A DNA stretch of 64,000 nt from Myxococcota bacterium (GTDB lineage Bacteria; Myxococcota_A; UBA9160; SMWR01), in NCBI GenBank assembly GCA_039030075.1, contig JBCCEW010000002.1, positions 124,001 through 188,000 on the forward strand, given 5' to 3'. The notes under the pieces were generated by a model that was not told the DNA's origin, did not search any database, and worked only from the letters and a program-made list of their open reading frames with translations. The position numbers and the translations under genes were made by a program. Within the stretch, counting starts at the first letter, position 1; every line of letters starts with the position of its first letter. Below are positions 1-44,297 of this stretch, piece after piece.

Positions 1-1022
1 GGAATGCCGGCATCCTGCAGGAGGGCGTCGGCGCTGCCCTCGACCGGGCCGTTCGCGACCTCGGCGATCAGCTTTGCGCGGATGCGGCCCGCGTTCTCGG
101 TGGTGATGACGCCCTCGAGGGCGGCCGGGATCAGCAGGTCGACTTCGAGCTCGAGGAGCTCCGCGTTGCTGATCTGCTGGTGGTCCACCAACTCACAGAC
201 CGAACCTTCGCAGTACACGCCCTGGAGCTTCCGCGTCTCCTGCTTGTTGTGGTAGAGGCTCTCGACGTCGAAGCCGTCCTTCGCGTAGATGCCGCCCTTC
301 GAATCGCTGACGGCGATGATCTTGTAGCCGGTCTGCTGCAGCAGTCGCGCGACGTGGTAGCCCGCGTTGCCGAGGCCCTGGACGGCGACCGTGGTCTCGC
401 CCGGCACCAGGCCGACGCGCTTCGCGTACTCCTGGATCACGATGAAGGCGCCGCGGCCGGTGGCTTCGTCGCGCCCCAGGCTCCCGCCCAGGGCGATCGG
501 CTTGCCGGTGATCACGCCGGGGTGTCGTTCGCGCTTGATGATCGCGTACTCGTCGGCCATCCAGCCCATGATCCGCGCGTTCGTGTAGACGTCGGGGGCG
601 GGGATGTCGGTGGCAGGCCCGACGAAGTCGGCCATCGCCCGCATGTAGGCGCGCGACAGGCGCTCGAGCTCGAGGCGCGACAGCTCCTTCGGGTTGACGA
701 TCACGCCGCCCTTGCCGCCGCCGTAGGGGATGCCGACGACGGCGCATTTGATCGCCATCCACAGGGCCAGAGCCTGGACCTCGGCGAGGGTGACGCCCGG
801 GTGGTAGCGGATGCCCCCCTTGGTGGGGCCGAGCGCGTCGTTGTAACGGCAGCGGTAGGCCTGGAAGTGGCGCGTCGAGCCGTCGTCCATGCGCACCGGC
901 AGATCGGCCGAGAGCACCGCCTTCGGTTGCCGCAAGGCATCGACAACTTCGGGGGCTACGCCGGCTTCCTCGGCGATCCGCTCGACGCGGGCCACCGCAT
1001 CCTGAAAGACATCGGTTTCCAT
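1..1022 (-). CDS. Glu/Leu/Phe/Val dehydrogenase, probably glutamate dehydrogenase (3' end cut by window)
   Basis: Amino-acid dehydrogenase interconverting glutamate (or a branched or aromatic amino acid) and its 2-oxo acid with NAD(P). The ATG at 1022 opens METDVFQDAVARVERIAEEA, and about 340 residues are present before the window edge; the family usually has about 410-430. The family active-site block PYGGGKGG with the catalytic lysine lies near residue 105. A Rossmann segment GLGNAGYHVARLL follows near residue 220. The start lies 23 bp after the stop of the FAD oxidoreductase on the same strand, so it is probably the last gene read in that operon. The exact substrate cannot be told from the visible part. 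The last C-terminal residues are not in view. Confidence 0.88.
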   Translation of the reverse strand, partial: METDVFQDAVARVERIAEEAGVAPEVVDALRQPKAVLSADLPVRMDDGSTRHFQAYRCRYNDALGPTKGGIRYHPGVTLAEVQALALWMAIKCAVVGIPYGGGKGGVIVNPKELSRLELERLSRAYMRAMADFVGPATDIPAPDVYTNARIMGWMADEYAIIKRERHPGVITGKPIALGGSLGRDEATGRGAFIVIQEYAKRVGLVPGETTVAVQGLGNAGYHVARLLQQTGYKIIAVSDSKGGIYAKDGFDVESLYHNKQETRKLQGVYCEGSVCELVDHQQISNAELLELEVDLLIPAALEGVITTENAGRIRAKLIAEVANGPVEGSADALLQDAGI

Positions 1023-1045
1023 CACGGTCCTCTCGCTCTCGGCTA

Positions 1046-2575
1046 CTAGCGCTGGAAGGCCATCCAGCGCGAAAGCCACTTCACGACGGTCGGGGTCGCG
1101 CGCTGACGGGTGTAGAGACCGGCGGCGCGCTTGATGCCCTCGGCCTGGGTCGGGTAGGGGTGGATCACTTCCAGGATCTTCCCGAGCCCGAGCTTGCCGA
1201 CGATCGCGAGGGTGATCTCGCTGATCATCTCACCCGCGTGCGAGGCCACGATCGTGGCGCCCAGGATCTGATCGCTGCCCTTCTTCGTGTGGATCTTCAC
1301 GAAGCCCTCGTCCTCACCGTCGGCGACGGCGCGGTTCACCTGCGACAGGGGGACGTGGAAGGTGTCGACCTCGATCCCCTTCGCCCGGGCGTCCTGCTCG
1401 TACATGCCGACGTGGGCGATCTCCGGGTCGGTGTAGGTGGCCCAGGGCATCACCAGGCTCGACAGCTTCTTCGTGCGGAAGAAGAGGGCGTTCTGGACGA
1501 CGATCTTTGCCGCCGCGTCGGCCGCGTGGGTGAACTTCCAGTTCATGCAGATGTCGCCGGCCGCGTAGATGCGCGGGTTCGTCGTCTGCAGGTAGTCGTT
1601 CACATGGACTCCGCGCCGTGCGTCGTACTCGACGCCGACCTCTTCGAGGCCGAGCCCGTCGACGTTCGGAGCGCGCCCGACGCCGAGCAGCAGCTCGTCG
1701 ACGACCACCCTGTCCTCGGTGCCGTCGGCCTTGGCGAAGTGAACGATCTTCTCGTCGCCCTGGCGCTCGACCCGCAGGATCTTGGCGTTCGCGGCGAGCC
1801 GGATCCCCTCGTCGAGGAACTGTTGCTCGACGATCTTCGCGGCGTCGGCGTCCTCGCGCGGGAGGATGTGGTCGTCGGCGTGGATCACCGTGACTTCCGA
1901 GCCGAGGCGACCGAAGGCCTGGGCCATCTCGCAGCCGATCGGGCCGGCGCCGATCACGCCGAAGCGGCGCGGGCGCTCGGTCAGGTTGAAGATCGTCTCG
2001 TTGGTGAGGTAGCCCGAATCCGCCAGGCCCTCGATCGGCAGGGCGATCGCGCGGGCGCCGGTCGCGATCACGGCCTTCTTGAAGCGCAGGGTCTGGCCCG
2101 CGACCTCGACCGTGTCCTTCCCGGTGAAGCGGGCGTCCCCGATGAACACCTCGACGCCGAGCTCGTCCCGGTAGCGGGTCGCGGCGTCCTCGTGGCTGAT
2201 CTCGGCGCGCACGCGGCGCATCCGCTCCATCGCCGCGCCGAAGTCGGGCTCGGCGTCGGGAGCCAGGGCGAGTCCGACCTCCTTCGTGGCGCGGCGCGCC
2301 TCTGCGACCATGCGCGACGCGCGAATCACGCCCTTCGAGGGCACGCAACCGACGTTCAGGCAGTCGCCGCCGAGGTAGTGGCGCTCGATCAGGGCCACCT
2401 TCGCGCCGAGGCCGGCCGCGATCGCCGCGGTGATCAGCCCGGCCGAGCCCGCCCCGATGATCACGAGGTTGTAGCGGCCGTCCGGCGTCGGGTTCTGCCA
2501 CTCGGAGGGGTGGACGTTGTCGACGAGGGTGCGGTTGTGCTCGTCGAGCGGGGAGACCTCGGGCAAATCGGACAT
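1046..2575 (-). CDS. FAD-dependent pyridine nucleotide-disulfide oxidoreductase (mercuric reductase-like family)
   Basis: Cytosolic flavoprotein of 509 residues in the dihydrolipoamide dehydrogenase / mercuric reductase superfamily. The FAD-binding GAGSAG is near residue 41. The redox-active pair is C72 and C77 in GGDCLNVGCVPSK. An NAD(P)-binding GAGPIGCEMA and a second FAD motif (AAGDIC) follow. The C-terminal HPYPTQAE gives the His-Glu dyad of the interface domain. It has no N-terminal HMA domain and no C-terminal vicinal cysteines, so a true mercury reductase is unlikely despite the usual database name. A good Shine-Dalgarno (AGGAGA) precedes ATG 2575. It sits directly after a TVP38 gene; this pairing recurs in bacteria, but its joint role is not established. 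Confidence 0.9.
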   Translation of the reverse strand: MSDLPEVSPLDEHNRTLVDNVHPSEWQNPTPDGRYNLVIIGAGSAGLITAAIAAGLGAKVALIERHYLGGDCLNVGCVPSKGVIRASRMVAEARRATKEVGLALAPDAEPDFGAAMERMRRVRAEISHEDAATRYRDELGVEVFIGDARFTGKDTVEVAGQTLRFKKAVIATGARAIALPIEGLADSGYLTNETIFNLTERPRRFGVIGAGPIGCEMAQAFGRLGSEVTVIHADDHILPREDADAAKIVEQQFLDEGIRLAANAKILRVERQGDEKIVHFAKADGTEDRVVVDELLLGVGRAPNVDGLGLEEVGVEYDARRGVHVNDYLQTTNPRIYAAGDICMNWKFTHAADAAAKIVVQNALFFRTKKLSSLVMPWATYTDPEIAHVGMYEQDARAKGIEVDTFHVPLSQVNRAVADGEDEGFVKIHTKKGSDQILGATIVASHAGEMISEITLAIVGKLGLGKILEVIHPYPTQAEGIKRAAGLYTRQRATPTVVKWLSRWMAFQR

Positions 2576-2616
2576 CGTTTCTCCTGGGTGGAAGCGGTGG
2601 CGCGTGACGGGCCGGA

Positions 2617-3351
2617 CTAGGCGTCTTCGCCCGTGGCTTCAGCCAGGGCGCGGCGCGCGATGCGCGTGACGAACACGGTGACGATGAGCGTCGCGACGAG
2701 ACCCACACCGAGCAGGACGTAGTCGCTGGCGCCGCGTTCTGGGGCGGCACCGCCGGCGAGGGCCGCGACGTCGCCGACGGCCTTCCCCGAGTAGACGTAG
2801 AGCAGGGTGCCGGGGAGCATGCCCAGCGAAGCCACCAGGTAGTCGATGAACTTCACGCGGGTGAGCCCGAGTGCGTAGTTCAACAGGTTGAAGGGGAACG
2901 CGGGCGACAGCCGCAAGAGGAACACGATCTTGCGTCCCTCGGCTGCGACGGCTTTGTCGATGGCGTCGAACTTCGTGTTGCCCTCGAGCTTCTTCTCGAT
3001 CGCCTCGCGTGCGAAGTAGCGCGACACCAGGAAAGCGAGTGAGGCGCCAAGGGTGGCGGCGACGAAGACGTAGGCCGTACCGGACGCGATCCCGAAGATG
3101 GCCCCCGCGGCCAGGGTCAAGAGCGACGCGGGCACGAAGGCCACGACGGCGACGGCGTACCCGAAGATGAAGACCAGCGGTCCCCAGAAGCCCAGGCTGT
3201 CGACCCACTGTGCGAAGTCCTGCACATAGCCGCCGGCCTGCCGACCGAGGACGACGATCGCGGCGAGTGCCACGACGGCGATCCCGATCTTTGCCCAGGG
3301 GATCCCGCCCGTTTCCGCTGCCTGCTCTTCCGTCACCGATTGGGTTTCCAT
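2617..3351 (-). CDS. TVP38/TMEM64 family inner-membrane protein
   Basis: Polytopic membrane protein of 244 residues in the TVP38/TMEM64 (SNARE-associated, DedA-related) family. The frame is open further upstream, but ATG 3351 (METQSVTEEQ) has a well-placed GAGGAG and removes a low-complexity leader. A first membrane segment starts near residue 18. The family core (VFIFGYAVAVVAFVPASLLT, then GAIFG) falls near residues 60-95, and AFPFNLLNYALGLT lies near residue 160. Members are thought to handle lipid or small-ion transport, but the substrate is unknown. It lies 41 bp before the FAD oxidoreductase and 82 bp after the radical SAM gene, in one transcription direction. Confidence 0.88.
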   Translation of the reverse strand: METQSVTEEQAAETGGIPWAKIGIAVVALAAIVVLGRQAGGYVQDFAQWVDSLGFWGPLVFIFGYAVAVVAFVPASLLTLAAGAIFGIASGTAYVFVAATLGASLAFLVSRYFAREAIEKKLEGNTKFDAIDKAVAAEGRKIVFLLRLSPAFPFNLLNYALGLTRVKFIDYLVASLGMLPGTLLYVYSGKAVGDVAALAGGAAPERGASDYVLLGVGLVATLIVTVFVTRIARRALAEATGEDA

Positions 3352-3433
3352 CGCCGGTCTCCTCGTTGTCCGTGTTCCGATGCCCGGGACCTGGGGAGGT
3401 TTCGAGTGGCTGCGCGCGCCCGGCAGGATGGGA

Positions 3434-4417
3434 TCAGGCGAGCGCTCCGCCGCAGCTGGAACCGCTTCCCGCCGTGCACCCATAGCAGTGTGGCGCGGTG
3501 GCGATCGCTCCCGCGCGCAGCTCGGACAGGGACCCGATGTCCCAGACCGTGCGCTTGGCGTTGCCGAGGGGAATCTCGAGGATCTGGTGGAAGTCGCAGT
3601 CGTGGAGCACGCCGTCCCAGCTCACCGACACCATCGAGCGACACATCAGTGACTCGACCGTGTCGGGGTTGAAGGACTGGACCAGCAGACTCATGTATTC
3701 GGTGTCGCGACCGTCTCGGGCCAGTGCATGGGCGAAGCGCTTGATCGGCATGTTGGTGATCGTGATCAGCCGATCGAAGCCGATGTCGAAGAGCTCGCGC
3801 AGCTCCTGCTTGTAGTCCTGCTCGAGCTGGCTCTGGGCCGGCGGCAAAGACGGACCCAGCGGGTTGTAGACGAGATCCAGCTCGAGCCCGGTACCGGGTT
3901 GGGCGTAGCCGAGCCGGTTCAGCTGCTGGAGGCCCTCGATGCTGCGCGTGAAGACGCGCTTGCCGCGCTGGGCGTCGACGTTCTCCTTCGTGTAGCAGGG
4001 CAGGGACGCCACGATCTTGGCACCGCTCTCGGCGAGGAACTCGGCCGTGTCCTCCTGGCCGGGCTCGTAGAGCACCGTCAGGTTGCAGCGGTCGATCACC
4101 TGGCGCCCGAGGGCCCGGGCCTCGGTGACGAGCCAGCGGAAGTTCGGGTTGAGTTCAGGGGCGCCGCCGGTGATGTCGAGGGTGGCCACCTCCGGCGCGC
4201 CGGCGAGCAGCTCGACCAGTCGCTCGGCGGTCGGGCGGTCCATCGCCTCGGTGCGCTTCGGCCCGGCTTCCACGTGACAATGGTGGCAGGCAAGGTCGCA
4301 GCGCTTGCCGATGTTCACCTGCAGGGTCGTGACCGCGCCCCGCAGCAGCGCGCCCTTGCCGTGGTCCGCGAGTGCGCGGTCGAAGCTGGGGAGTTCGGGA
4401 GATCGGTCCAGATTCAT
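3434..4417 (-). CDS. arsS: Radical SAM/Cys-rich protein, ArsS-like (TIGR04167-type)
   Basis: Radical SAM enzyme of 327 residues. The 4Fe-4S cluster motif CDLACHHC is near residue 40. Further cysteines follow (MCRSMVS, HDCDFH), and a Cys-rich tail ends in CYGCTAGSGSSCGGALA. This layout matches the family named ArsS or radical SAM/Cys-rich (TIGR04167), implicated in making arsenosugars after methylation by ArsM. No ArsM is visible here, so the arsenosugar role is inferred from the family only. Some relatives carry selenocysteine in the tail; here the tail is all cysteine. ATG 4417 (MNLDRSPELPS) has AAGGA upstream and overlaps the DUF3047 stop by four bases (ATGA), which implies translational coupling. 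Confidence 0.85.
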   Translation of the reverse strand: MNLDRSPELPSFDRALADHGKGALLRGAVTTLQVNIGKRCDLACHHCHVEAGPKRTEAMDRPTAERLVELLAGAPEVATLDITGGAPELNPNFRWLVTEARALGRQVIDRCNLTVLYEPGQEDTAEFLAESGAKIVASLPCYTKENVDAQRGKRVFTRSIEGLQQLNRLGYAQPGTGLELDLVYNPLGPSLPPAQSQLEQDYKQELRELFDIGFDRLITITNMPIKRFAHALARDGRDTEYMSLLVQSFNPDTVESLMCRSMVSVSWDGVLHDCDFHQILEIPLGNAKRTVWDIGSLSELRAGAIATAPHCYGCTAGSGSSCGGALA

Positions 4418-5187
4418 GGATCCTTCGACGAGGAGGGCGAGGACGCGTCGGGGGGTTCGATGCCGGTGGGGCGCTCGAGGTCTCCGTCCGCGGCGGTCCA
4501 CCGGAAGTTGGCATAGAGCGCCCGGCTCGCGCCGCAGTGGTCGTCGCTATCCGTCATCAGGGCGACGGCCACCGGTGTCGGCCCGCTGCGGCCGAAGGCC
4601 TGCCGGTAGGCGGCTCCGACGTCGATCGAGGCCTCCTGCCAGCCCGGGGCGGGGCCCTGGGCGAGGGCCCACATCTTCACCTCGGTGGCGCGGGGGCTGG
4701 TCCAGACCGTCCCGGCCGGGATCTCGTGGGTCCAGACGAAGTGGATCGCCGTCCCGGGCACCTCGGAGCCCATCAGGCGCTCGGCGAACTCGTGCCGCAC
4801 CCGGTCGAGCAGGCTGGCCCGCCCCGACTCGAAGGGGAACATCACCGTGACCCGGCCCGCGAAGTCGTCGCCGGCCTTGGTCCGCTCCGCCGGGACCGGC
4901 GCCAGCTCGGTCACCCACCAGCGCCAGCGGAGCACGGGGGTCTCGGCGAGGTCCAGGCCCTCGAGCCGTACCGCCCGCCCCGAGGCGGAGCAGCGCGCGA
5001 TCGCCTCGACGCCGCCATTCTCGGCGGGTCGGTACTCGGTGTGGTCCACCCCGGGAAACTCGACAGGTTCCCAGGCGGCTTCGGTCGGCGCCGGCAGCGC
5101 GAGGTCGGCGCTTCCCCCGAGGGGAAGAAGGAGGCCGAACGCCGCCCAGAGCGGGATCCAGCGTCGTCGCGGTCGATTCCCGACCAT
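4414..5187 (-). CDS. DUF3047 family secreted protein
   Basis: Exported protein of 257 residues with an N-terminal signal peptide (basic MVGNRPRRRW, then a hydrophobic run). It matches the DUF3047 family: the core LRWRWWV near residue 95, then AGDDFAGRVTVMFPF, FVWTHEIPAG, and a C-terminal DSDDHCGASRALYANFRW. Function is unknown; the fold is probably a secreted beta-sandwich. A frame open to 5619 is an artefact of high GC; ATG 5187 with GGGAGGAAAAC is the convincing start. It is the first gene of the radical SAM/TVP38/FAD operon and is coupled to the next gene by ATGA. Confidence 0.82.
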   Translation of the reverse strand: MVGNRPRRRWIPLWAAFGLLLPLGGSADLALPAPTEAAWEPVEFPGVDHTEYRPAENGGVEAIARCSASGRAVRLEGLDLAETPVLRWRWWVTELAPVPAERTKAGDDFAGRVTVMFPFESGRASLLDRVRHEFAERLMGSEVPGTAIHFVWTHEIPAGTVWTSPRATEVKMWALAQGPAPGWQEASIDVGAAYRQAFGRSGPTPVAVALMTDSDDHCGASRALYANFRWTAADGDLERPTGIEPPDASSPSSSKDP

Positions 5188-35578: not shown

Positions 35579-37158
35579 TCCCTGCCACCCTTGCGCCGCT
35601 CGGGGCCACGCTGTTCTCTTCGGTGCTCTTCCTCGGAGCGTTTCGAGGCGGGCTGTGGAGCGCCCTGGCCTGGGTCGCCCTGGTGCCGCTCTTGTGGGCG
35701 GTGCGCCGGGTGACGCTCCCCACGGCCCTGGGGTTGGCTGCGCTCTGGGGCGTGCTGTCGGGCTACGCCATCGCCGAGCCGTTCCCGCCCTCGATTTCCG
35801 AGTATTTCGAGCAGCCGGTCTGGGTGGGCTGGGCCTTCGCCGTGGGTCTCTTCGCCGTGATGGCGTCGCCCTACTACATGCTCTTCGTCGCACTCGACCG
35901 GGGCCTAGCCGCCGGGCGCGGGCGCGCATGGCACCCGATCGTCGTGGCCTGCGCCTGGATCGCGGTCGAGTGGCTGCGCGGTCGCCTCTTCACCGAGACG
36001 ATCTTCTTCATCGGGAATCCGTGGGGGCAGCTCGGCGCGTCCCAGCTAGCGGCGTTGCCGCTCGTGCAGATCGCGGCGTGGACGGGCCTCTACGGTCCGA
36101 GTTTCCTGGTCGCGCTCGTCAACGCGGTGATCGCGGACGCGCTCGAGGCGCGGGAGCACGGGGGCGCGTACGCGCCCGAACATGGGGGCTGGCAGGCGCG
36201 CGACGCCGGGGCGCGGTTCGCGCTGGTAGCGGTGCCGATCGTCGCCTCGCTCGCCTACGGCTGGAGCGTGGTGCCCCCCTTCGACCCCGAGCCGCCCGGC
36301 GCCGTGCGCGTGGCCGCCGTGCAGCCGAACCTCGAACTCGGGGTGCGCTGGAAGCGCGAGTACTACGGCCGCAACCTCGAACGGCATCTACGCCAGAGCG
36401 TCGAAGTCGCGCGCGAGACCCGGCCGCCCGTGATCTTCTGGCCCGAGGGTTCGTTCACCTTCTTCCTCGAGGACGAGCCCGCCTATCGCCGCACGATCGC
36501 GCGCACCCTGGCCGTGCTCGACGCCGAACTCGTGGCCGGGGGCCCGGCGAAGGAGGTCGAGGGGGAGGGCGCCACCCTGCGCAATCGGGTGTTCGTGCTC
36601 GATCCGCGCGGCACGATCCGCGGGCGCTACGACAAGGAGCATCTCGTCCCCTTTTCTGAGTACGTGCCCGGGCGCGCCCCCGACCCGATGCGCCGCGACT
36701 TCGGTCAGGCCCGCGCGTTCGTCCACGGCACGCGCACGGCGCCCCTCCAAACCCGCGCCGGCCGGATCGGGGTGCTCATCTGCAACGAGGCGCTGCTCTC
36801 GGAGGTCGCGGCGGAACGCGTACGCGCCGGTGCCCAGCTCCTCGCGAACCCGTCGAACGACAGCTGGGTGGCCGAAGAGGACTTCGCGCGGCGGATGCTC
36901 GAACACGTCGCCTTCCGCTCGATCGAGCTGCGTCGCTGGCAGGTACGCGCCTCGACCGAAGGTCCCTCTGCCGTGATCGACCCCTTCGGCCGCGTCACCG
37001 CCGCCACCCCTCACGGCGAAGCCGGCACCCTGCTCGCCGCCGTCGTCCCGCGCGACGACCTGACGGGCTACGCCCGCTTCGGGGATTGGTTTCCCGCACT
37101 CTGCGTCGCGATCGTGGGCGTCGCCGCCGTCGCCCTGCGGCGACGGGCGAGGGACTAG
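35575..37158 (+). CDS. lnt: Apolipoprotein N-acyltransferase, apparent CTG start
   Basis: Inner-membrane enzyme of 527 residues that adds the third acyl chain to lipoproteins. The catalytic triad is visible: E291 (FWPEGSFTFF), K354 (RYDKEHLVPFSEYVPGR) and C403 (LICNEALLSE). ANPSNDSWVAEEDFARRM and FRSIELRRWQVRAS are typical Lnt segments. The first GTG (35623) would cut the first membrane helix (LAPLGATLFSSVLFLGAF). In-frame homology reaches CTG 35575, which has GGAG seven bases upstream and overlaps the cyclase stop as CTGA. The stop TAG lies inside a CTAG shared with the convergent gene. Confidence 0.9.
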   Translation: MIPATLAPLGATLFSSVLFLGAFRGGLWSALAWVALVPLLWAVRRVTLPTALGLAALWGVLSGYAIAEPFPPSISEYFEQPVWVGWAFAVGLFAVMASPYYMLFVALDRGLAAGRGRAWHPIVVACAWIAVEWLRGRLFTETIFFIGNPWGQLGASQLAALPLVQIAAWTGLYGPSFLVALVNAVIADALEAREHGGAYAPEHGGWQARDAGARFALVAVPIVASLAYGWSVVPPFDPEPPGAVRVAAVQPNLELGVRWKREYYGRNLERHLRQSVEVARETRPPVIFWPEGSFTFFLEDEPAYRRTIARTLAVLDAELVAGGPAKEVEGEGATLRNRVFVLDPRGTIRGRYDKEHLVPFSEYVPGRAPDPMRRDFGQARAFVHGTRTAPLQTRAGRIGVLICNEALLSEVAAERVRAGAQLLANPSNDSWVAEEDFARRMLEHVAFRSIELRRWQVRASTEGPSAVIDPFGRVTAATPHGEAGTLLAAVVPRDDLTGYARFGDWFPALCVAIVGVAAVALRRRARD

Positions 37159-38336
37159 CTCCGGCTCCAGCAAGCGCGCCCGAGCTGGCCGGGCAGCAGC
37201 TGCTCCTCGGTGTGGGCCACGCGCTCGATGGCCGTCGGCGCGCGCTCGTCGGCTCCCCGCGCGTAGCGCGCCTCGAGGGATCCGCCGTTCTCGAGCAGCT
37301 CCGCCACGGTGTCGACGGTGGCACGCAAGAGGGCGGGCGAGAAGAGTTGGGCGAACGAAAACAGGCGGTTCGTGTCCGGCAGCCAGGACAGAGTCCAGCG
37401 ACTCGCGGCACCCACGGTATCCGGGTCGAGGTTCTCGACGCGGTGCCACCACCAGGGCGGACTCACCAGCACGTCGCCGGGCTCGAGCACGACCTCTTCC
37501 CGCGGACAGCTGGCGAAGAGGTCGGTGTGGCTGCTTGGAATGTCGGGATGGTCGAGGATCGAGGCGACATAGGCGGCGTCGCGCGTGACCCACGGATACA
37601 TCGCGTAGCTGTAGGCCGGGTCGACGAAGGTCCAGCGCTTGCGCCCGTGCAGCATCGTGAACAGGTTCAGGTTGTTCGCGCAGTGGAAGCTGAGGCCCGA
37701 ACCCGAGCGCGCGCCGAGGAAGAGCTGGAGCGCGTAGGGGCGTCCGCCGGTCCACGCCCGGTAGCGATCGACGTCGAGCTGGCGGACGAGCTCGGGATGT
37801 CGCAGCAGCAGCTGCTCGCTGTTTGCGACGTAGCGCGCATCGCCGGCCCCGAGTCGTCCCAGCGCCTCCCACGCGAAGTGATCCCGATCCCGAACCCAGA
37901 CGGGGGTCCGCGGGAAGGCTTCGCGGAGGGCCGCCAGACTCCAATCGCGCGCGAGAGGGGCGCCGCCTCGGATCACCCACGGGCGGGGATGCTGGCGCAG
38001 GCTCGGGCCCAGGGTCGCGGCGGCCGCGAGGTCGAGTTCGGGGACGGGGGTGGCGCGGGCGGGTGCACGCGGGAGCTCGCGTCGCGCGCGCGCGAGGTAG
38101 CCGCGTGCCCAGGGGCGATGGACATCGTTGCGTCCGCGCAGGAACCGCAGCAGGACGAGCAGGCGAAAGGCGAGAGCGGTGCGCCGGCTCGGCAGGAAGT
38201 GCCGGTCGACCTCGCCGACGCTCGACAGCGACCGCCGCAGCACCGCAGCGGCTCCGAAGCCGCCGCGCGCGGCCCCGTAGGCCCAGGAGGCCGATGCGAG
38301 GGTCCAGGCGAAGCAACGCGCGAGCCCCGGCCTCAC
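37155..38336 (-). CDS. Cupin/JmjC-like protein with H-x-A metal motif
   Basis: Protein of 393 residues with a C-terminal cupin_8/JmjC-like fold. WVIRGGAPLARDWSLAALRE near residue 120 is the typical domain start. LSFHCANNLNLFTMLHGRKR (H218) and VLVSPPWWWHRVENLD (H298) mark the metal-binding strands. In the Fe(II)/2-oxoglutarate dioxygenases of this family the first motif is H-x-D/E, but here it is H-C-A (A220). The site therefore has two histidines and no carboxylate, as in 2-oxoglutarate-dependent halogenases, or it may be inactive. The N-terminal 100 residues are unusual and partly hydrophobic. Its stop overlaps the lnt stop on the other strand (CTAG, 37155-37158). Confidence 0.8.
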   Translation of the reverse strand: MRPGLARCFAWTLASASWAYGAARGGFGAAAVLRRSLSSVGEVDRHFLPSRRTALAFRLLVLLRFLRGRNDVHRPWARGYLARARRELPRAPARATPVPELDLAAAATLGPSLRQHPRPWVIRGGAPLARDWSLAALREAFPRTPVWVRDRDHFAWEALGRLGAGDARYVANSEQLLLRHPELVRQLDVDRYRAWTGGRPYALQLFLGARSGSGLSFHCANNLNLFTMLHGRKRWTFVDPAYSYAMYPWVTRDAAYVASILDHPDIPSSHTDLFASCPREEVVLEPGDVLVSPPWWWHRVENLDPDTVGAASRWTLSWLPDTNRLFSFAQLFSPALLRATVDTVAELLENGGSLEARYARGADERAPTAIERVAHTEEQLLPGQLGRACWSRS

Positions 38337-38358: not shown

Positions 38359-38943
38359 TCAGCGGGACCGGCGCCCGTAGCGCGCCGCGATCCACAGCGC
38401 GGTTCCGAAGATCAGCGCCGCCGAGGGCTCGGGAATCGCCGGGATCGTGAGCGATGCGCCCATCACCGTCGGCATCAGGTCGTTGCCCAGGGCATCGGAG
38501 AGCAGGGCCTGATCGAAGCTGAGCGCCGTGGTGCCCGCCGCGATCGCCTGGAAGGTGAGGGTCGCGAGGACGACGGTGTCGCCCTGGGCTGCGTCCAGGG
38601 CCGCGGGCGCCAGGAACGAGACCTCGAAGATGTCCAGCACGCCGCCCGCCGCGTTCTGGGAGAAGAACGTGGTCGGAGGCATGCCGTTCGGGTCACCGAG
38701 CTCACCGCCGGGTACCGCGTCGATGAACTGGATCAGACCCGCATCGAAGGCGATGTCGAAGTCGTAGGCGCCCACGGAAGGGGCGACACCGTTGCCGAGG
38801 CCGGCCGCGACGATGTCCACCGTGAAGAGATCGCTGATCGCCGGGTCGGTCGCCGGTGTGGCGAAGGCGAGCGTCGCCGCGCCCGCCGAGGCGCCCGTCA
38901 GGGAGAGGGCCAGGGTCAGCGCTGCAAGGATTCCGCGTTTCAT
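38359..38943 (-). CDS. Cohesin-like PEP-CTERM protein
   Basis: Secreted protein of 194 residues. After the signal peptide (KRGILAALTLALSLTGASAG), the domain reads like a cohesin: DLFTVDIVAAGLGNG, VGAYDFDIAFDAGLIQFIDA, VLATLTFQAIAAGTTALSFD and MGASLTIPA. The sorting tail is IPEPSAALIFGTALWIAARY with terminal RRSR. It lies 14 bp after the stop of a 1779-residue protein that ends in a dockerin, so both are probably on one mRNA and may bind each other. ATG 38943 has GGGAG at better spacing than the ATG one codon upstream. Confidence 0.88.
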   Translation of the reverse strand: MKRGILAALTLALSLTGASAGAATLAFATPATDPAISDLFTVDIVAAGLGNGVAPSVGAYDFDIAFDAGLIQFIDAVPGGELGDPNGMPPTTFFSQNAAGGVLDIFEVSFLAPAALDAAQGDTVVLATLTFQAIAAGTTALSFDQALLSDALGNDLMPTVMGASLTIPAIPEPSAALIFGTALWIAARYGRRSR

Positions 38944-38957
38944 CATTCGCTCCCGTC

Positions 38958-41900
38958 TCATCGGAGGGCTCCGGCGCGCGCCTGGCGCGCTCGGCGTCGG
39001 AAGTAGGGGATGGCCACCAGCAGCAGCTCGATGCCCAGCAGGCCGCAGCCCGACTTGTTCTGACAGTTCGGGCGGTCGCACGAGAGCGTGCAGATCCGGG
39101 CGTCGAAGACGTTGATCGAGCCGTCGCCGTTGGCGTCGCGCGGATCGCCTGGGCCCGTGGACGTCTGGCCGAAGGCCTGGGTGATCAGCTGGATGTCCAT
39201 CGAGTCGATGAACTCGTTGCCGTCGACATCGCAGACCATCGGCGGGGCGGCGGCCCGGCAGTCCGACGGGCAGCTGTCGCCGTCGTCTAGGTTGCCGTCG
39301 TCGCAGGCCTCGTTGGCCTCGAGAACGCCGTTGCCGCAGGTCGAGAAGTCGCAGGCGTCGCCCAGGTCGTCCTGGTCGACGTCGGTCTGCTGCACGTTCG
39401 GCTCGAAGACGCAGTTGTCGAAGGCGTCGCTCACGCCGTCGCCGTCGATGTCGCCGCTCGCGACGAGGATCCGGTCGTCCCGACAGGTGATCGTCGCGTC
39501 GATGCACGGGGTCTCGCCGCCGCAACCCGGGCAGTCGGCGTCGGTCACGCAGGAGCCGAGCTGACGCGCGCACACGCCCATGTCGGCACCGGGCGCGATG
39601 TCGCAGATCTCGTCGCCGCCGCAGTCCTGGCTCGACATGGCGCCAGCGGGGCTGCCGCAGACCGTGGCCGTCTGCTGGAAGCAGAGGCCTTCGCCGAGGA
39701 ACGCGGTGTCGCCGCCGCTGCCGGCCAGCGGGTCTCCCTGGCTGTCGCCCGTCTCGACGGTGCCGCCGATCTCGACTTCGCCCGAGCGGCCGAAGCAGAG
39801 CGCCACCAGGAGCTCGCCACTGACCCCGTTCGCGTTGAGGTCGCCACCGGGGAGCGGCACGCCGTCGAAGAATCCGCAGCTGCCGTCGGCGATCGTGGGT
39901 TCGACGCCCTGCGAGCACTCCTGGGTGAGGGCGCGGATCTGCGCCTCGTCGACGCGGAAGGTCTCGCGCGGGTCACAGGCCTCTTCGACGCACGGCGTGA
40001 TTGCGAGCTCGCAGCTCACGAGCCGGTCGTTCGCCGTGTCGTAGGCCGAGAGGACGTCGTCGCAGCAGTCGCCGTCGCCGTTCAAGTCGCAGCCGCAGGT
40101 GTTCACGATGCCCGAGTCGAGACAGAAGTCGCGCTCGCTGCAGCCCGAGAGCAGCAGACCCTCTTCGAAGTCGCAGCAATCGCCGTCGCCGTCGAGATCG
40201 CAGCCACAGCCCAGGTTCTGGGCCTCTTCGCAGAAGAGGGTCTCGGCGCAGAGACTGATCTCGCGGGTGGCGATCCCGATCAGCGCGCCTTCGCGGCAGG
40301 TCTCGCCGGTCTGGCAGTCGGCGGCAGCGGCGCAGGTCTCGCCGAACGCCCGACACGCGCCGGCGTCGCAGAATTCGCCGGCGCCGCAGTCGTCGTCGAC
40401 GGTGCAGGCCGCGCCGGGCGCGCCGACGCAGACGCCCGAGAACGGGCCGATCTCGCAGAACTGAGCGCCGATGCCCGGCTCGAGCAGGGTGCCCGTGCTC
40501 GCGTCGTAGGCCTGGGCGTAGCGGTCGGCCATGTCGCCGTCGCCGTTCGCATCCACGCCCTGCTCGCTCTCGAGGGTGGTGAAGGACACGATCGGTCCAG
40601 ACACGCCGCAGATCTCGTCCGAGGTCTGCGCCGCGCCGGCACCGTCCGTCACCGGGGTCCAGCCGCCGGCCGTCACGTCCCAGACCGAGACCACGTCTCC
40701 GCCGGCAACGCCGTCGTCGACGCGGGCGGCCAGGTGGGTCTCGGAGAGCTTCACCTCGCTCGCGTCCTCACCGAGGTTCTGGACGCTGCCGCGGTTGGTG
40801 TAGAAGCAGACGTTCACGTCGTCGGTGTCGGTGTCGCCGTTGCCGTCGACGGGCGCGATGCGGTCGGCGTCCTCATCGCAGAGGAAGGCCGCGTTTCCGG
40901 CCGCAACGCTGGCCTGGCTCGCGGGGCCGAGCTGAGTGGGCGCGCCCGGGCTCCGGGCGTCGAAGACGTGGAGCAGGATGTCGTCGAGATCGCCGTCCTG
41001 GAGCAGGTCGCCGGTCAGACCGCCGATGCCCGGCAGCCGCGTGCGAATGCCGTGGATGTACGTGTCGATGCGCTCGTTGCCGTCGAAAGCGACGAGCGGG
41101 GCGATCGTGGCCAGGCCTGCGTGGAGGCCCCGGGTGGAGATCCCCGGAGCATCGATCTCGTTGGGCTCGACCGACTGGAGCACGCCGTCCTGATCGATCG
41201 CGGTGAAGTGGGTGATGCCCGTGGTGAGATCGACTTGCAGGCTCTGGGGCTCGATCAGGACCGTGCCCTCGATGGGGTCGAAGACCAGTTCCGAGACCAT
41301 CGCGACGTAGCGGCCGTCGGGCGAGATCCGCGGCGGCTCGCCGACGCTGAGGACGGCCGGCACCGAGGCGCCGTAGGTGTTCGTGAGGGCGACGGCCGCC
41401 GCCGGCACGAACTGCAACCGCTCGGCGTCGGCGTGGTAGACGTACACGTCGCTCGAACCGCCCGTGTCCTCGGGCAGGAGGTTCGCGGTCGTGGTGAACG
41501 CCACGCGCTTCCCGTCGGCCGAGATGGAGGGGTCCGAGGAAAAGCCCGTCGCGGCGCCGGGGCTGGCCCATTCGGCCTGGCCCGTCTCGCGATCCAGGAT
41601 GTAGACGTCGGTGCCGCCGCCGTAGCCGTCCCCGTCGACGTCGTTCTCGTCGATGTTCCGGTTCGTGGCGAAGGCGAGATAGCGACCGTCTTCGGAGAGC
41701 GACGGGCGCTCGTTGAAGATGTCGTCGCCGAAGAAGCCCGGGTCGCCCTCCGAGCCGGGCAGTACGAGTTCGACGGTGTCGGTCGCGACGTCGTAGGTGC
41801 AGATGGAGGCCGGCGGCTCGCCTTCCTGGGGAGAGACCTCCCAGGCGGCCGTCGAGCCGTCGTTGCTGATCACCGGGTACTCGGCGTCGGAGCTGCTGCC

Positions 41901-44297
41901 AGCGGCGCAAGGCGGCCGCGAGATCCAGGTCGTGGTGCCGTTCTGACGATCGCGCAAATAGACGTGGGTGACGAAACTGCCGGGCGCGCCGAAGTTGCTC
42001 GCGCGGCTGGGGAAGACCACGAAGCGGCCGTCGTCGGAGACGTCCGCTCCCGGCGTGAAGCGCTCACCCGACCCTTCGTCGCCGAGGTCGCCATTCGTCG
42101 CGACGCTGATCAGCTCGGTCAGGATCTCGCCGGGCTCGTCGTAGAGCCCGTCCTCGTCGGGGTCGCGGTCGATCAGGTAGACGTCGCGCTCGTCGTTCGT
42201 GTCGGCGGGCACGGTGACGATGTCGACGGCCGTGGTGTCGTAGGCCACGAAGCGGCCGTCGCTGCTCATCGCCGCGCGCTCCCGGCTGAACTCGGTGAAC
42301 GAGAAGCTCGAGAACTCGACGGGAACGTTTCCGTCCGCGTCGCTGCTGGACGGCGTCGAGACCCGCTCGCCTTCGTCGGCTTCGGAGACCCGGTAGAAGA
42401 CCTGGCCGTCCGAGATCGCGAGGGAGAGGCCGTCGATCACCGGGCCGGCGTCGGCCGTGGTGAGCGGGTTCAGCGGCGCGTTCGGGGTCGCGTCGTCGGC
42501 GGAGCGCTGGTAGACCCGCAGGAAGTTGTCTTCGACCCGGTTGTTGCTGTTGAGGTCGTTGCCGAAGTCGGTCGGCTCGGACTGCAGGAAGGCGAGGATG
42601 TCGTCTTCGACGCCCACCGCCGTGAAGCGGTAGGGCGGCTGGATCACCTGGGTGGCCGCCACACCGACCGCCGTCGCCTGGATGCCGATCTGCTGCTCGG
42701 TGCCGGTCTCGCGGTTGACCATGGTCATCGCGATGTCGGTGACGTCCCCGTCGGCGTTGAAGTCGGCGTCGGTGGGTGAGCCCTCGGCCGCTTCGAAGGC
42801 CTCGACCCGCGGCAGGGCGAGGATGTCGTCGCTCTGCTGGATGAACAGCGACTCGAGGGGCACGAGATTGCCGGCCGTCGCGACGTAGGTGTCGTCGAGG
42901 GTGGGGCCGCAGCCCTCGCCCGCGAAGCGCGTCGAGAAGTCGAAGAGCGACGGGCCGCACTCGCTCCCGCTCGGGCAGTCGCTGTCTGCGTTGCAGGCTA
43001 CGTCGGCCAGCGGGGCCGGCAGCTGGGAGAGCGGGACGGGCCGCTCGCCGAGGTTCGGCGCCTGGTGGCACACGCTCGGGTCGCAGCTGAAGCCCTCACC
43101 GCACTCTTCGTCCAGGTTGCAGGGCTCGCCGGCGAAGGGGCTGCCGGCGGCACACGCGGCGAACGTCTCTCCGCGGCGGTTGATGCGGGTGATCGAGAAC
43201 GGCGCGTCGACCGAGCCGTAGAGCACGACCGAACCCCCGCCCTCTTCGGCGAAGGGCGACAGGATCGGCGGCAGGAAATGGCCTTGAGGCGAGAGCGCCG
43301 AGCTGAAGCTCTGGCCGGGAACGCGAATCGCGTCCGCACTTCCGGTGAAGGCGGAGATCTCGCTCGACAGGTTCACCAGTCGCGGCACCGGCGTGCCGTC
43401 GTCGAGGCGCACCAGCACGCCGGCCCAGTTCACGGGCACCAGCAGGTTGCCCGCTGTGTCGATCGTGAAGCGCGCGTCGGGGCGGATCCCGTCGCAGGGC
43501 GAGCCCGGCTCGGGCGTACACATCGCCTCGTAGTTGTTGTAGACGGGCAGCGCCGTGAAGGACGGGAACGTGCCCTGGATCTGCGCCGGGTCGGTCTCGC
43601 AGGTGTCGTTGACGTCGTAGAGCTCGTCGACGCAGGCGACGAGGTCGCTGCCCACCACGGTGTCGGCGCAGCGATTGCTCGCGAGCTCACACGGCAGGTC
43701 GCCCGCCGGGTCGCGCGGCTGGATCGCGATCTTGACGGTGCCGGCCAGGGTCGAGCCCGCAGGTGCGCTCGGGCCGGCCAGGGCGTTGGTATCCGGGAAG
43801 GGGAAGATCAGGGTTCCCGAATCCGGGATCACGAGGTCTGCCGCCTGGCAGATGGCCTGGCGGGTGGCGGTCGGATCGCCGGCGCCGAGCACCGGCAGCT
43901 CGGCCTGGCAGGCGTTGGCCTGGGCGCTGCCCGCGAAGCCGGCGCACGCGACGGGCCCGTCCTGGAGCACCAGCGCATTCGCCGGCCCGTTCGGCGGCGT
44001 GAAGATCAAGACGACCTGGTAGTCGTCGTCGGGGCCCACGTTCGTGCCGAGGTCGATCAGGCCGGCGCCGGCCGACGACTCGCAGCCGGTCAGGTCCAGG
44101 CTCAGGGTGACCGGGTCGCCGGGGGCGGCGAAGGGTCGGTCGAGGCTACTCAGGCTCGCCCGGAAGGTGTTCTCGGTCCCGGGGACGAAGTTGCAGCTCG
44201 CGTCGGCCGGGCGCGCCGTGGACGCGCAGATCGCCAGGGCAATGGCGCCCAGGACGAGGCCGAAGCGAGACGAACGAAAGGGATCCGGAGAGGGCAT
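38958..44297 (-). CDS. Giant secreted protein with TolB-like repeats, Cys-rich modules, dockerin and sorting tail
   Basis: Exported protein of 1779 residues; ATG 44297 has GGAGG, and a signal peptide follows. Residues 30-350 are beta-rich with many cysteines. TolB/PD40-like propeller repeats lie near residues 670-1010 (DGRFVAYDTTA, DGKRVAFTTTANLLPED, DGRYVAMVSEL). Cys-rich EGF-like modules lie near 1285-1400 (CTVDDDCGAGEFCDAGAC). Thrombospondin type 3 and Myxococcus-type repeats (ACDDGNLDDGDSCPSDC) lie near 1620-1685. A dockerin with two calcium loops, DVDGNEFIDSMD and DANGDGSINVFD, is at 1690-1735. The C-terminus is SGCGLLGIELLLVAIPYF plus arginines, a sorting-signal-like tail with cysteine. 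Probably surface-attached; function unknown. Confidence 0.88.
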   Translation of the reverse strand: MPSPDPFRSSRFGLVLGAIALAICASTARPADASCNFVPGTENTFRASLSSLDRPFAAPGDPVTLSLDLTGCESSAGAGLIDLGTNVGPDDDYQVVLIFTPPNGPANALVLQDGPVACAGFAGSAQANACQAELPVLGAGDPTATRQAICQAADLVIPDSGTLIFPFPDTNALAGPSAPAGSTLAGTVKIAIQPRDPAGDLPCELASNRCADTVVGSDLVACVDELYDVNDTCETDPAQIQGTFPSFTALPVYNNYEAMCTPEPGSPCDGIRPDARFTIDTAGNLLVPVNWAGVLVRLDDGTPVPRLVNLSSEISAFTGSADAIRVPGQSFSSALSPQGHFLPPILSPFAEEGGGSVVLYGSVDAPFSITRINRRGETFAACAAGSPFAGEPCNLDEECGEGFSCDPSVCHQAPNLGERPVPLSQLPAPLADVACNADSDCPSGSECGPSLFDFSTRFAGEGCGPTLDDTYVATAGNLVPLESLFIQQSDDILALPRVEAFEAAEGSPTDADFNADGDVTDIAMTMVNRETGTEQQIGIQATAVGVAATQVIQPPYRFTAVGVEDDILAFLQSEPTDFGNDLNSNNRVEDNFLRVYQRSADDATPNAPLNPLTTADAGPVIDGLSLAISDGQVFYRVSEADEGERVSTPSSSDADGNVPVEFSSFSFTEFSRERAAMSSDGRFVAYDTTAVDIVTVPADTNDERDVYLIDRDPDEDGLYDEPGEILTELISVATNGDLGDEGSGERFTPGADVSDDGRFVVFPSRASNFGAPGSFVTHVYLRDRQNGTTTWISRPPCAAGSSSDAEYPVISNDGSTAAWEVSPQEGEPPASICTYDVATDTVELVLPGSEGDPGFFGDDIFNERPSLSEDGRYLAFATNRNIDENDVDGDGYGGGTDVYILDRETGQAEWASPGAATGFSSDPSISADGKRVAFTTTANLLPEDTGGSSDVYVYHADAERLQFVPAAAVALTNTYGASVPAVLSVGEPPRISPDGRYVAMVSELVFDPIEGTVLIEPQSLQVDLTTGITHFTAIDQDGVLQSVEPNEIDAPGISTRGLHAGLATIAPLVAFDGNERIDTYIHGIRTRLPGIGGLTGDLLQDGDLDDILLHVFDARSPGAPTQLGPASQASVAAGNAAFLCDEDADRIAPVDGNGDTDTDDVNVCFYTNRGSVQNLGEDASEVKLSETHLAARVDDGVAGGDVVSVWDVTAGGWTPVTDGAGAAQTSDEICGVSGPIVSFTTLESEQGVDANGDGDMADRYAQAYDASTGTLLEPGIGAQFCEIGPFSGVCVGAPGAACTVDDDCGAGEFCDAGACRAFGETCAAAADCQTGETCREGALIGIATREISLCAETLFCEEAQNLGCGCDLDGDGDCCDFEEGLLLSGCSERDFCLDSGIVNTCGCDLNGDGDCCDDVLSAYDTANDRLVSCELAITPCVEEACDPRETFRVDEAQIRALTQECSQGVEPTIADGSCGFFDGVPLPGGDLNANGVSGELLVALCFGRSGEVEIGGTVETGDSQGDPLAGSGGDTAFLGEGLCFQQTATVCGSPAGAMSSQDCGGDEICDIAPGADMGVCARQLGSCVTDADCPGCGGETPCIDATITCRDDRILVASGDIDGDGVSDAFDNCVFEPNVQQTDVDQDDLGDACDFSTCGNGVLEANEACDDGNLDDGDSCPSDCRAAAPPMVCDVDGNEFIDSMDIQLITQAFGQTSTGPGDPRDANGDGSINVFDARICTLSCDRPNCQNKSGCGLLGIELLLVAIPYFRRRARQARAGALR

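Follow-up and report, generated by a model that had tools for sequence, protein, structure and literature searches.

Two adjacent genes in the window (the whole 64,000-nucleotide stretch of Myxococcota bacterium DNA that was analysed) are best explained as encoding a non-cellulosomal, exosortase-linked plug-and-socket system that would tether large surface proteins. We favour this explanation by a modest margin only, and the binding between the two proteins on which it depends is inferred. The genes form an operon-like pair on the minus strand, with 38958-44297 encoding a giant dockerin-bearing protein and 38359-38943 encoding a small cohesin protein. A gene for a 393-aa cupin/JmjC-like protein (37155-38336) lies on the same strand, 22 bp after the cohesin gene. 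A first-pass annotation, made from sequence alone, had placed the pair 14 bp apart in one operon, and both the spacing of 14 bp and the shared strand held. The features of the locus are as follows.

38359..38943, minus strand: gene for the PEP-CTERM cohesin protein, 194 aa (PF00963, 29.3 bits), 14 bp downstream of the dockerin gene
38878..38943, minus strand: signal peptide of the cohesin protein, about residues 1-22, read from the sequence
38434..38877, minus strand: mature cohesin domain (AlphaFold2 pLDDT 94.1, pTM 0.87; Foldseek cohesin matches)
38362..38433, minus strand: PEP-CTERM tail of the cohesin protein, PEPSAALIFGTALWIAARYGRRSR (TIGR02595, 17.0 bits against a cut-off of 16, isolated tail)
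38958..44297, minus strand: gene for the dockerin-bearing secreted protein, 1779 aa, with PD40 repeats, weak TSP3 and dockerin
44196..44297, minus strand: probable signal peptide of the giant protein, about residues 1-34, read from the sequence
41439..41549, minus strand: best beta-propeller-type PD40 repeat, residues 917-953 (PF07676, 40.6 bits)
39387..39455, minus strand: thrombospondin type 3-like repeat, residues 1615-1637 (PF02412, 21.2 bits, below the cut-off of 25)
39063..39233, minus strand: four-cysteine type I dockerin, residues 1689-1745 (PF00404, 32.4 bits; Cys 1, 48, 52 and 57 invariant in 42 homologues)
38961..39047, minus strand: Cys/transmembrane/Arg tail of the giant protein, CGLLGIELLLVAIPYFRRRARQ, MYXO-CTERM-like (by sequence; the homologue in genome G011 passes TIGR03382)

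The product of 38359-38943 is a true cohesin by family and by fold, although its binding to a dockerin is inferred. It exceeds the PF00963 cut-off of 24.1 bits, the mature domain alone reaches 30.3 bits, and 25 of 28 relatives also match this family (E <= 0.1). When all PDB sequences were searched with the profile of these 28 relatives (A4), the top matches were cohesins (3l8q at 6.6e-9, 6kg8, 1g1k and 2vn5). All 50 matches listed by Foldseek for the AlphaFold2 model of the mature domain against the PDB are likewise cohesins, with TM-scores by query of 0.62-0.79 and with 5nrm_A as the best match (E 1.7e-9, TM 0.77/0.81). The model includes a short helix at residues 91-97 ahead of the strand at 102-111, and type II cohesins have a helix in the region matching these residues. 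The cohesin-like domain read in the first-pass annotation was thus upheld by the family cut-off and by structure comparison. The PEP-CTERM tail that it had also assigned, which consists of PEP, a transmembrane segment and Arg, held when scanned in isolation with TIGR02595 but stayed below the cut-off in whole-protein scans. The genome of the window carries four PF09721 exosortase matches above cut-off, the best at 253 bits. The same genome (5.76 Mb) holds a single cohesin and three dockerins above cut-off, and this sole cohesin adjoins one of the three dockerins.

The giant protein begins with a probable signal peptide and contains propeller-type PD40 repeats and a weakly matching thrombospondin type 3 repeat, followed by the type I dockerin and a tail. 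PF00404 matches residues 1690-1734 at 23.9 bits in the whole protein (cut-off 22.9) and at 32.4 bits in the excised domain. Both calcium loops, DVDGNEFIDSMD and DANGDGSINVFD, are present as had been claimed, which upholds the earlier assignment of a type I dockerin at this end, and the dockerin profile matches PDB chain 1ohz_B with an E value of 0.0011. An alignment of 42 dockerin relatives, of which 30 match PF00404 (E <= 0.1), has invariant residues C1, D4, D10, D13, D30, R32, D33, D44, C48, C52 and C57. The dockerin of locus L106, which lacks the last cysteines, was excluded from this alignment. The classical type I dockerin is not known to have four invariant cysteines. The four invariant cysteines mark the window dockerin family as a distinct subtype, while bracing by disulphides and calcium-dependent binding are inferred.

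Beyond the dockerin, the tail CGLLGIELLLVAIPYFRRRARQ has the right architecture but matches no NCBIfam model. In G011, the homologous tail does exceed the cut-off of the MYXO-CTERM model TIGR03382 (19.2 versus 15.85), and matches to this model across the window genome are weak. A whole-genome search for the tail motif CG[LV]xGxE found it at the C terminus of the window protein only, with eight other matches attributable to chance, and therefore we make no claim of a numerous tail system.

The strongest support for a functional link between the two proteins is that their genes lie side by side far more often than chance would allow, a conclusion that is shown by the scarcity of these cohesins in genomes, by the adjacency itself and by its recurrence elsewhere. 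When only the dockerin was used to scan the 11 million genome contigs, 41 loci were obtained from Myxococcota, Beta- and Gammaproteobacteria, Nitrospirota and other groups, and their neighbours were then searched with the cohesin profile. A cohesin gene is adjacent on the same strand in 25 of them. Because the searched genomes hold only about 1-4 cohesins of this family, adjacency by chance is expected at no more than about 1% per locus, and under that bound P is below 1e-37 (the loci are not all independent). The reverse test agrees, with a dockerin neighbour found for 13 of 16 further cohesins (E <= 1e-10) that had not been selected through a dockerin. Among 191 genomes drawn evenly from the phylum, the cohesin occurs in 7, the dockerin in 8 and the two together in 5 (P about 6e-7, with shared ancestry not corrected for). 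Seven of the 12 dockerins in this draw lie within 300 bp of a cohesin, and all seven belong to the order of the window. Within this order, the dockerins of G047, G048 and G066 have no adjacent cohesin, and the cohesins of G038 and G039 have no adjacent dockerin. The scattered distribution, which includes Desulfobacterota as well as the groups named above, is compatible with horizontal spread, which remains an inference. Single records, such as the one from Saprospiraceae, might reflect contamination of metagenome-assembled genomes.

The anatomy of the paired proteins follows the gene order. Among the 25 loci, a downstream cohesin gene goes with a C-terminal dockerin, and an upstream cohesin gene goes with an N-terminal dockerin placed directly after the signal peptide. 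The dockerin end tracks the side of the cohesin gene, and therefore the dockerin faces that gene. The 'upstream' labels of L084 and L123 are an artefact of stop-to-stop frame starts, and the cohesins of both start downstream. The passengers of these dockerins are mutually unrelated, including PKD, Ig-like, VCBS, cadherin-like, PASTA, LamG, EGF and DUF11 domains as well as propellers. Their domain content looks adhesin-like, and an adhesive role is inferred from it. Furthermore, three copies of the giant protein homologue in G007 have neither dockerin nor tail, and the homologue in G071 has the Cys tail without the dockerin. Because the passengers are unrelated and these homologues lack the domain, the dockerin is probably a portable module that is present where a cohesin gene adjoins.

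No glycoside hydrolase was found in the window dockerin protein or in the relatives scanned, and the earlier claim that catalytic carbohydrate modules are absent held for these proteins. The genome's two further dockerin proteins were inspected by reading only and lie outside this domain scan. The claim that both proteins carry a sorting tail needed to be refined. Dockerin proteins with a tail occur in the order of the window (G000, G011, G014, G040-C42 and G074), and none was seen in the other loci read, such that the double tail is typical of this order and not general. The broader proposal of a non-cellulosomal structural or adhesive surface complex is supported by the fold, the families, the passengers and the adjacency across phyla, with binding still inferred. 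The proposed pairing of cohesin and dockerin is likewise supported by conserved adjacency, but was refined in that, in some bacteria, members of the dockerin family are paired with a PEP-CTERM protein unrelated to cohesin.

This other partner family (A8), which is unrelated to the cohesin, neighbours the dockerin in ten loci, mostly from Betaproteobacteria. It weakly resembles the model of the flocculation protein PepA (E 5e-10, 39.7 bits against a cut-off of 80) and has no relative in the PDB. The possibility that A8 is a divergent cohesin was ruled out by a profile comparison probability of 0.1%. Nine of the ten A8-paired (B-type) loci have alignable dockerins, and these are set apart, without overlap, from cohesin-paired dockerins by the residues at three sites around the second helix (K versus R/L, V/F versus others, and P versus others). 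Of eight B-type genomes searched for this cohesin family, six have none and two have weak matches. A change of receptor is possible and would be expected to leave such a pattern, although the shared descent of the nine dockerins would also explain the letters.

In the mechanism we propose, the two genes would form an operon for a cognate cohesin-dockerin pair that operates outside any cellulosome. The small cohesin protein would be exported via its signal peptide and then processed by an exosortase at its PEP-CTERM tail, and the processed cohesin would become a socket associated with the surface or with exopolysaccharide. The calcium-loaded dockerin of the exported giant protein, braced by its four cysteines, would plug into this socket, and docking would keep its large ectodomain, of adhesin or propeller type, at the surface of the cell. 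In most relatives, the dockerin protein has no end feature besides the dockerin, and the cohesin would therefore serve as its anchor. In the order of the window, where the dockerin protein usually has a membrane or sorting tail of its own, the pair would lock together two differently anchored proteins. The domain identities, the cohesin fold, the adjacency in two gene orders, the swapping of passengers and the genomic exosortases in this scheme are shown; its binding, calcium dependence, processing, surface location and adhesive role are inferred. An AlphaFold2 model of an in-frame read-through cohesin and dockerin from the homologous pair L111 (pTM 0.55, dockerin pLDDT 72-81) has a well-folded cohesin but no resolved docked interface. 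The tool gives no inter-domain error, and therefore this model neither supports nor excludes binding.

Several observations stand against tethering. The tail of the giant protein may make a second anchor needless, ten loci have an unrelated PEP-CTERM protein where the cohesin would be, and in the order of the window some dockerins and two cohesins have no partner gene beside them.

A rival explanation is that cohesin and dockerin are general surface-protein domains that do not bind each other, and that they are neighbours merely through shared clusters of exosortase-linked secreted proteins. Either domain type can indeed be found alone elsewhere, several dockerins in the order of the window stand without a cohesin next to them, and the dockerin family is paired at ten loci with a PEP-CTERM protein that is not a cohesin. 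However, this account must contend with adjacency in 25/41 and 13/16 cases despite about 1-4 such cohesins per genome, with a dockerin end that faces the cohesin gene in 25 of 25 loci, and with the B-type genomes checked, where such a cohesin is missing from 6/8 and only weakly matched in 2/8. We consider it unlikely. Even less probable, in our judgement, is binding in trans, whereby the cohesin on one cell would engage a dockerin protein displayed by the next, and the pair would work as an adhesin between cells or within flocs. This idea draws on the prediction that both proteins are membrane- or surface-anchored in the window's order, and on the ties of other PEP-CTERM families to floc formation (PMC9850573). 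However, no topology data stand behind it, and the absence of a visible anchor on the dockerin protein of most relatives fits tethering in cis better.

The remaining rival, a small cellulosome or degradative complex whose enzymes are encoded elsewhere in the genome, can be almost entirely dismissed. Although cohesin and dockerin are classical cellulosome parts, one above-cut-off cohesin in the genome leaves no multi-cohesin scaffoldin, and PKD, Ig, cadherin, LamG and PASTA domains, but no glycoside hydrolases, were found in the dockerin proteins that were scanned. We reject the cellulosome reading on these two grounds, the single genomic cohesin and the non-catalytic passengers.

The tethering pair that we prefer shares its two families with the type I and type II pairs of clostridial cellulosomes (1ohz, 2vn6, 5nrm and 5k39), to which the window cohesin compares with TM-scores of about 0.73-0.78. 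However, it differs from them in having a single cohesin, no scaffoldin and no catalytic passengers among the proteins scanned, and in having a PEP-CTERM anchor, four invariant dockerin cysteines and adjacent genes. Non-cellulosomal cohesins and dockerins were already known (Peer et al. 2009, as cited in PMC9012536 and PMC8542988). The window fold matches the non-cellulosomal cohesin 2xdh of Archaeoglobus and 2jh2 of Clostridium perfringens NagJ (2jh2/2ozn), and, as in the window, the known cases are single cohesins or dockerins outside cellulosomes. However, the accounts citing these cases mention no two-gene cassette that is exosortase-anchored and has adhesin passengers. Surface proteins of ANME archaea (PMC9012536) similarly have cohesin and dockerin on extracellular proteins without cellulose degradation, but that system is archaeal and the sections bearing on it show neither an adjacent two-gene cassette nor a PEP-CTERM tail. 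The tails of the two window proteins resemble in architecture those of the PEP-CTERM/exosortase (PMC1569441) and MYXO-CTERM/myxosortase (PMC11980579) systems, although these are described as anchors of single proteins and not as half of a plug-and-socket. No paper in the open-access literature searched brings dockerin and PEP-CTERM together, and subscription papers were outside the search. Thus, as far as that literature can tell, non-cellulosomal cohesins and dockerins are known and the exosortase-linked, adjacent two-gene version appears to be new.

A bolder reading, which we offer tentatively and judge the less probable outcome, is that this is a widespread and probably horizontally spread plug-and-socket surface system of Gram-negative bacteria. 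Giant adhesins unrelated to one another would carry, at one end or the other, a portable dockerin braced by cysteines. This dockerin would be matched with an adjacent exosortase-anchored cohesin, and would have been re-paired in Betaproteobacteria and some others with the unrelated PEP-CTERM family, which would be the first non-cohesin receptor for a dockerin.

The binding of cohesins to dockerins is among the strongest known protein-protein contacts and has mostly been studied in cellulose degraders. If the tethering explanation is true, it would offer new orthogonal binding pairs for protein engineering and would provide a class of functionally uncharacterised PEP-CTERM proteins with a role that can be tested. 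It would also explain how many environmental Gram-negative bacteria, including Accumulibacter and Thauera of activated sludge, hold very large adhesin-like proteins.

Ten of the fetched loci (L096, L098, L099, L102, L103, L106, L107, L112, L114 and L115) have a dockerin of the same family beside an unrelated PEP-CTERM protein family, aligned as A8, with cohesin absent from that place. A distinct DVKxC.P signature is present in nine aligned dockerins from these loci. The A8 family is a possible dockerin receptor other than cohesin.

Several other gene arrangements were also observed. Locus L160 (G089:C46, 1962-15296) encodes a PKD-rich protein of 3827 aa with a four-cysteine dockerin at its C terminus, and this dockerin gene has a cohesin PEP-CTERM gene on either side (two in all). 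At L019 and L165 (G108:C23, ORF 503-5008, minus strand), a single stop-free frame spans the cohesin/PEP-CTERM sequence, a second signal-peptide-like stretch after it, and the dockerin-bearing region; fused genes, overlapping genes and a frame error could each account for this. At L180 (G014:C140), the dockerin protein has a C-terminal PEP-CTERM-like tail of its own, and a cohesin PEP-CTERM gene lies just upstream of, or overlaps, the dockerin gene.

Two further features belong to the genome that contains the window:

G000:C7:220581-226041 (L003, L127), the genome's second dockerin protein

Window 37155-38336, minus strand, a Cupin_8/JmjC-like gene downstream of the cohesin gene, with 22 bp between them

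The former has as neighbours two PEP-CTERM proteins in tandem, encoded on the opposite strand, and an exosortase lies approximately 3 kb from it. The latter is probably in one operon with the cohesin gene, and its product might be a modifying enzyme or, alternatively, an oxygenase that is unrelated.

A divergent second subtype of cohesin PEP-CTERM is found at L029, L173 and L174 (genomes G065 and G074). Because these cohesin genes precede genes with a different type of dockerin that lacks the four cysteines, several cohesin-dockerin subtypes coexist in the taxonomic order of the window's organism.
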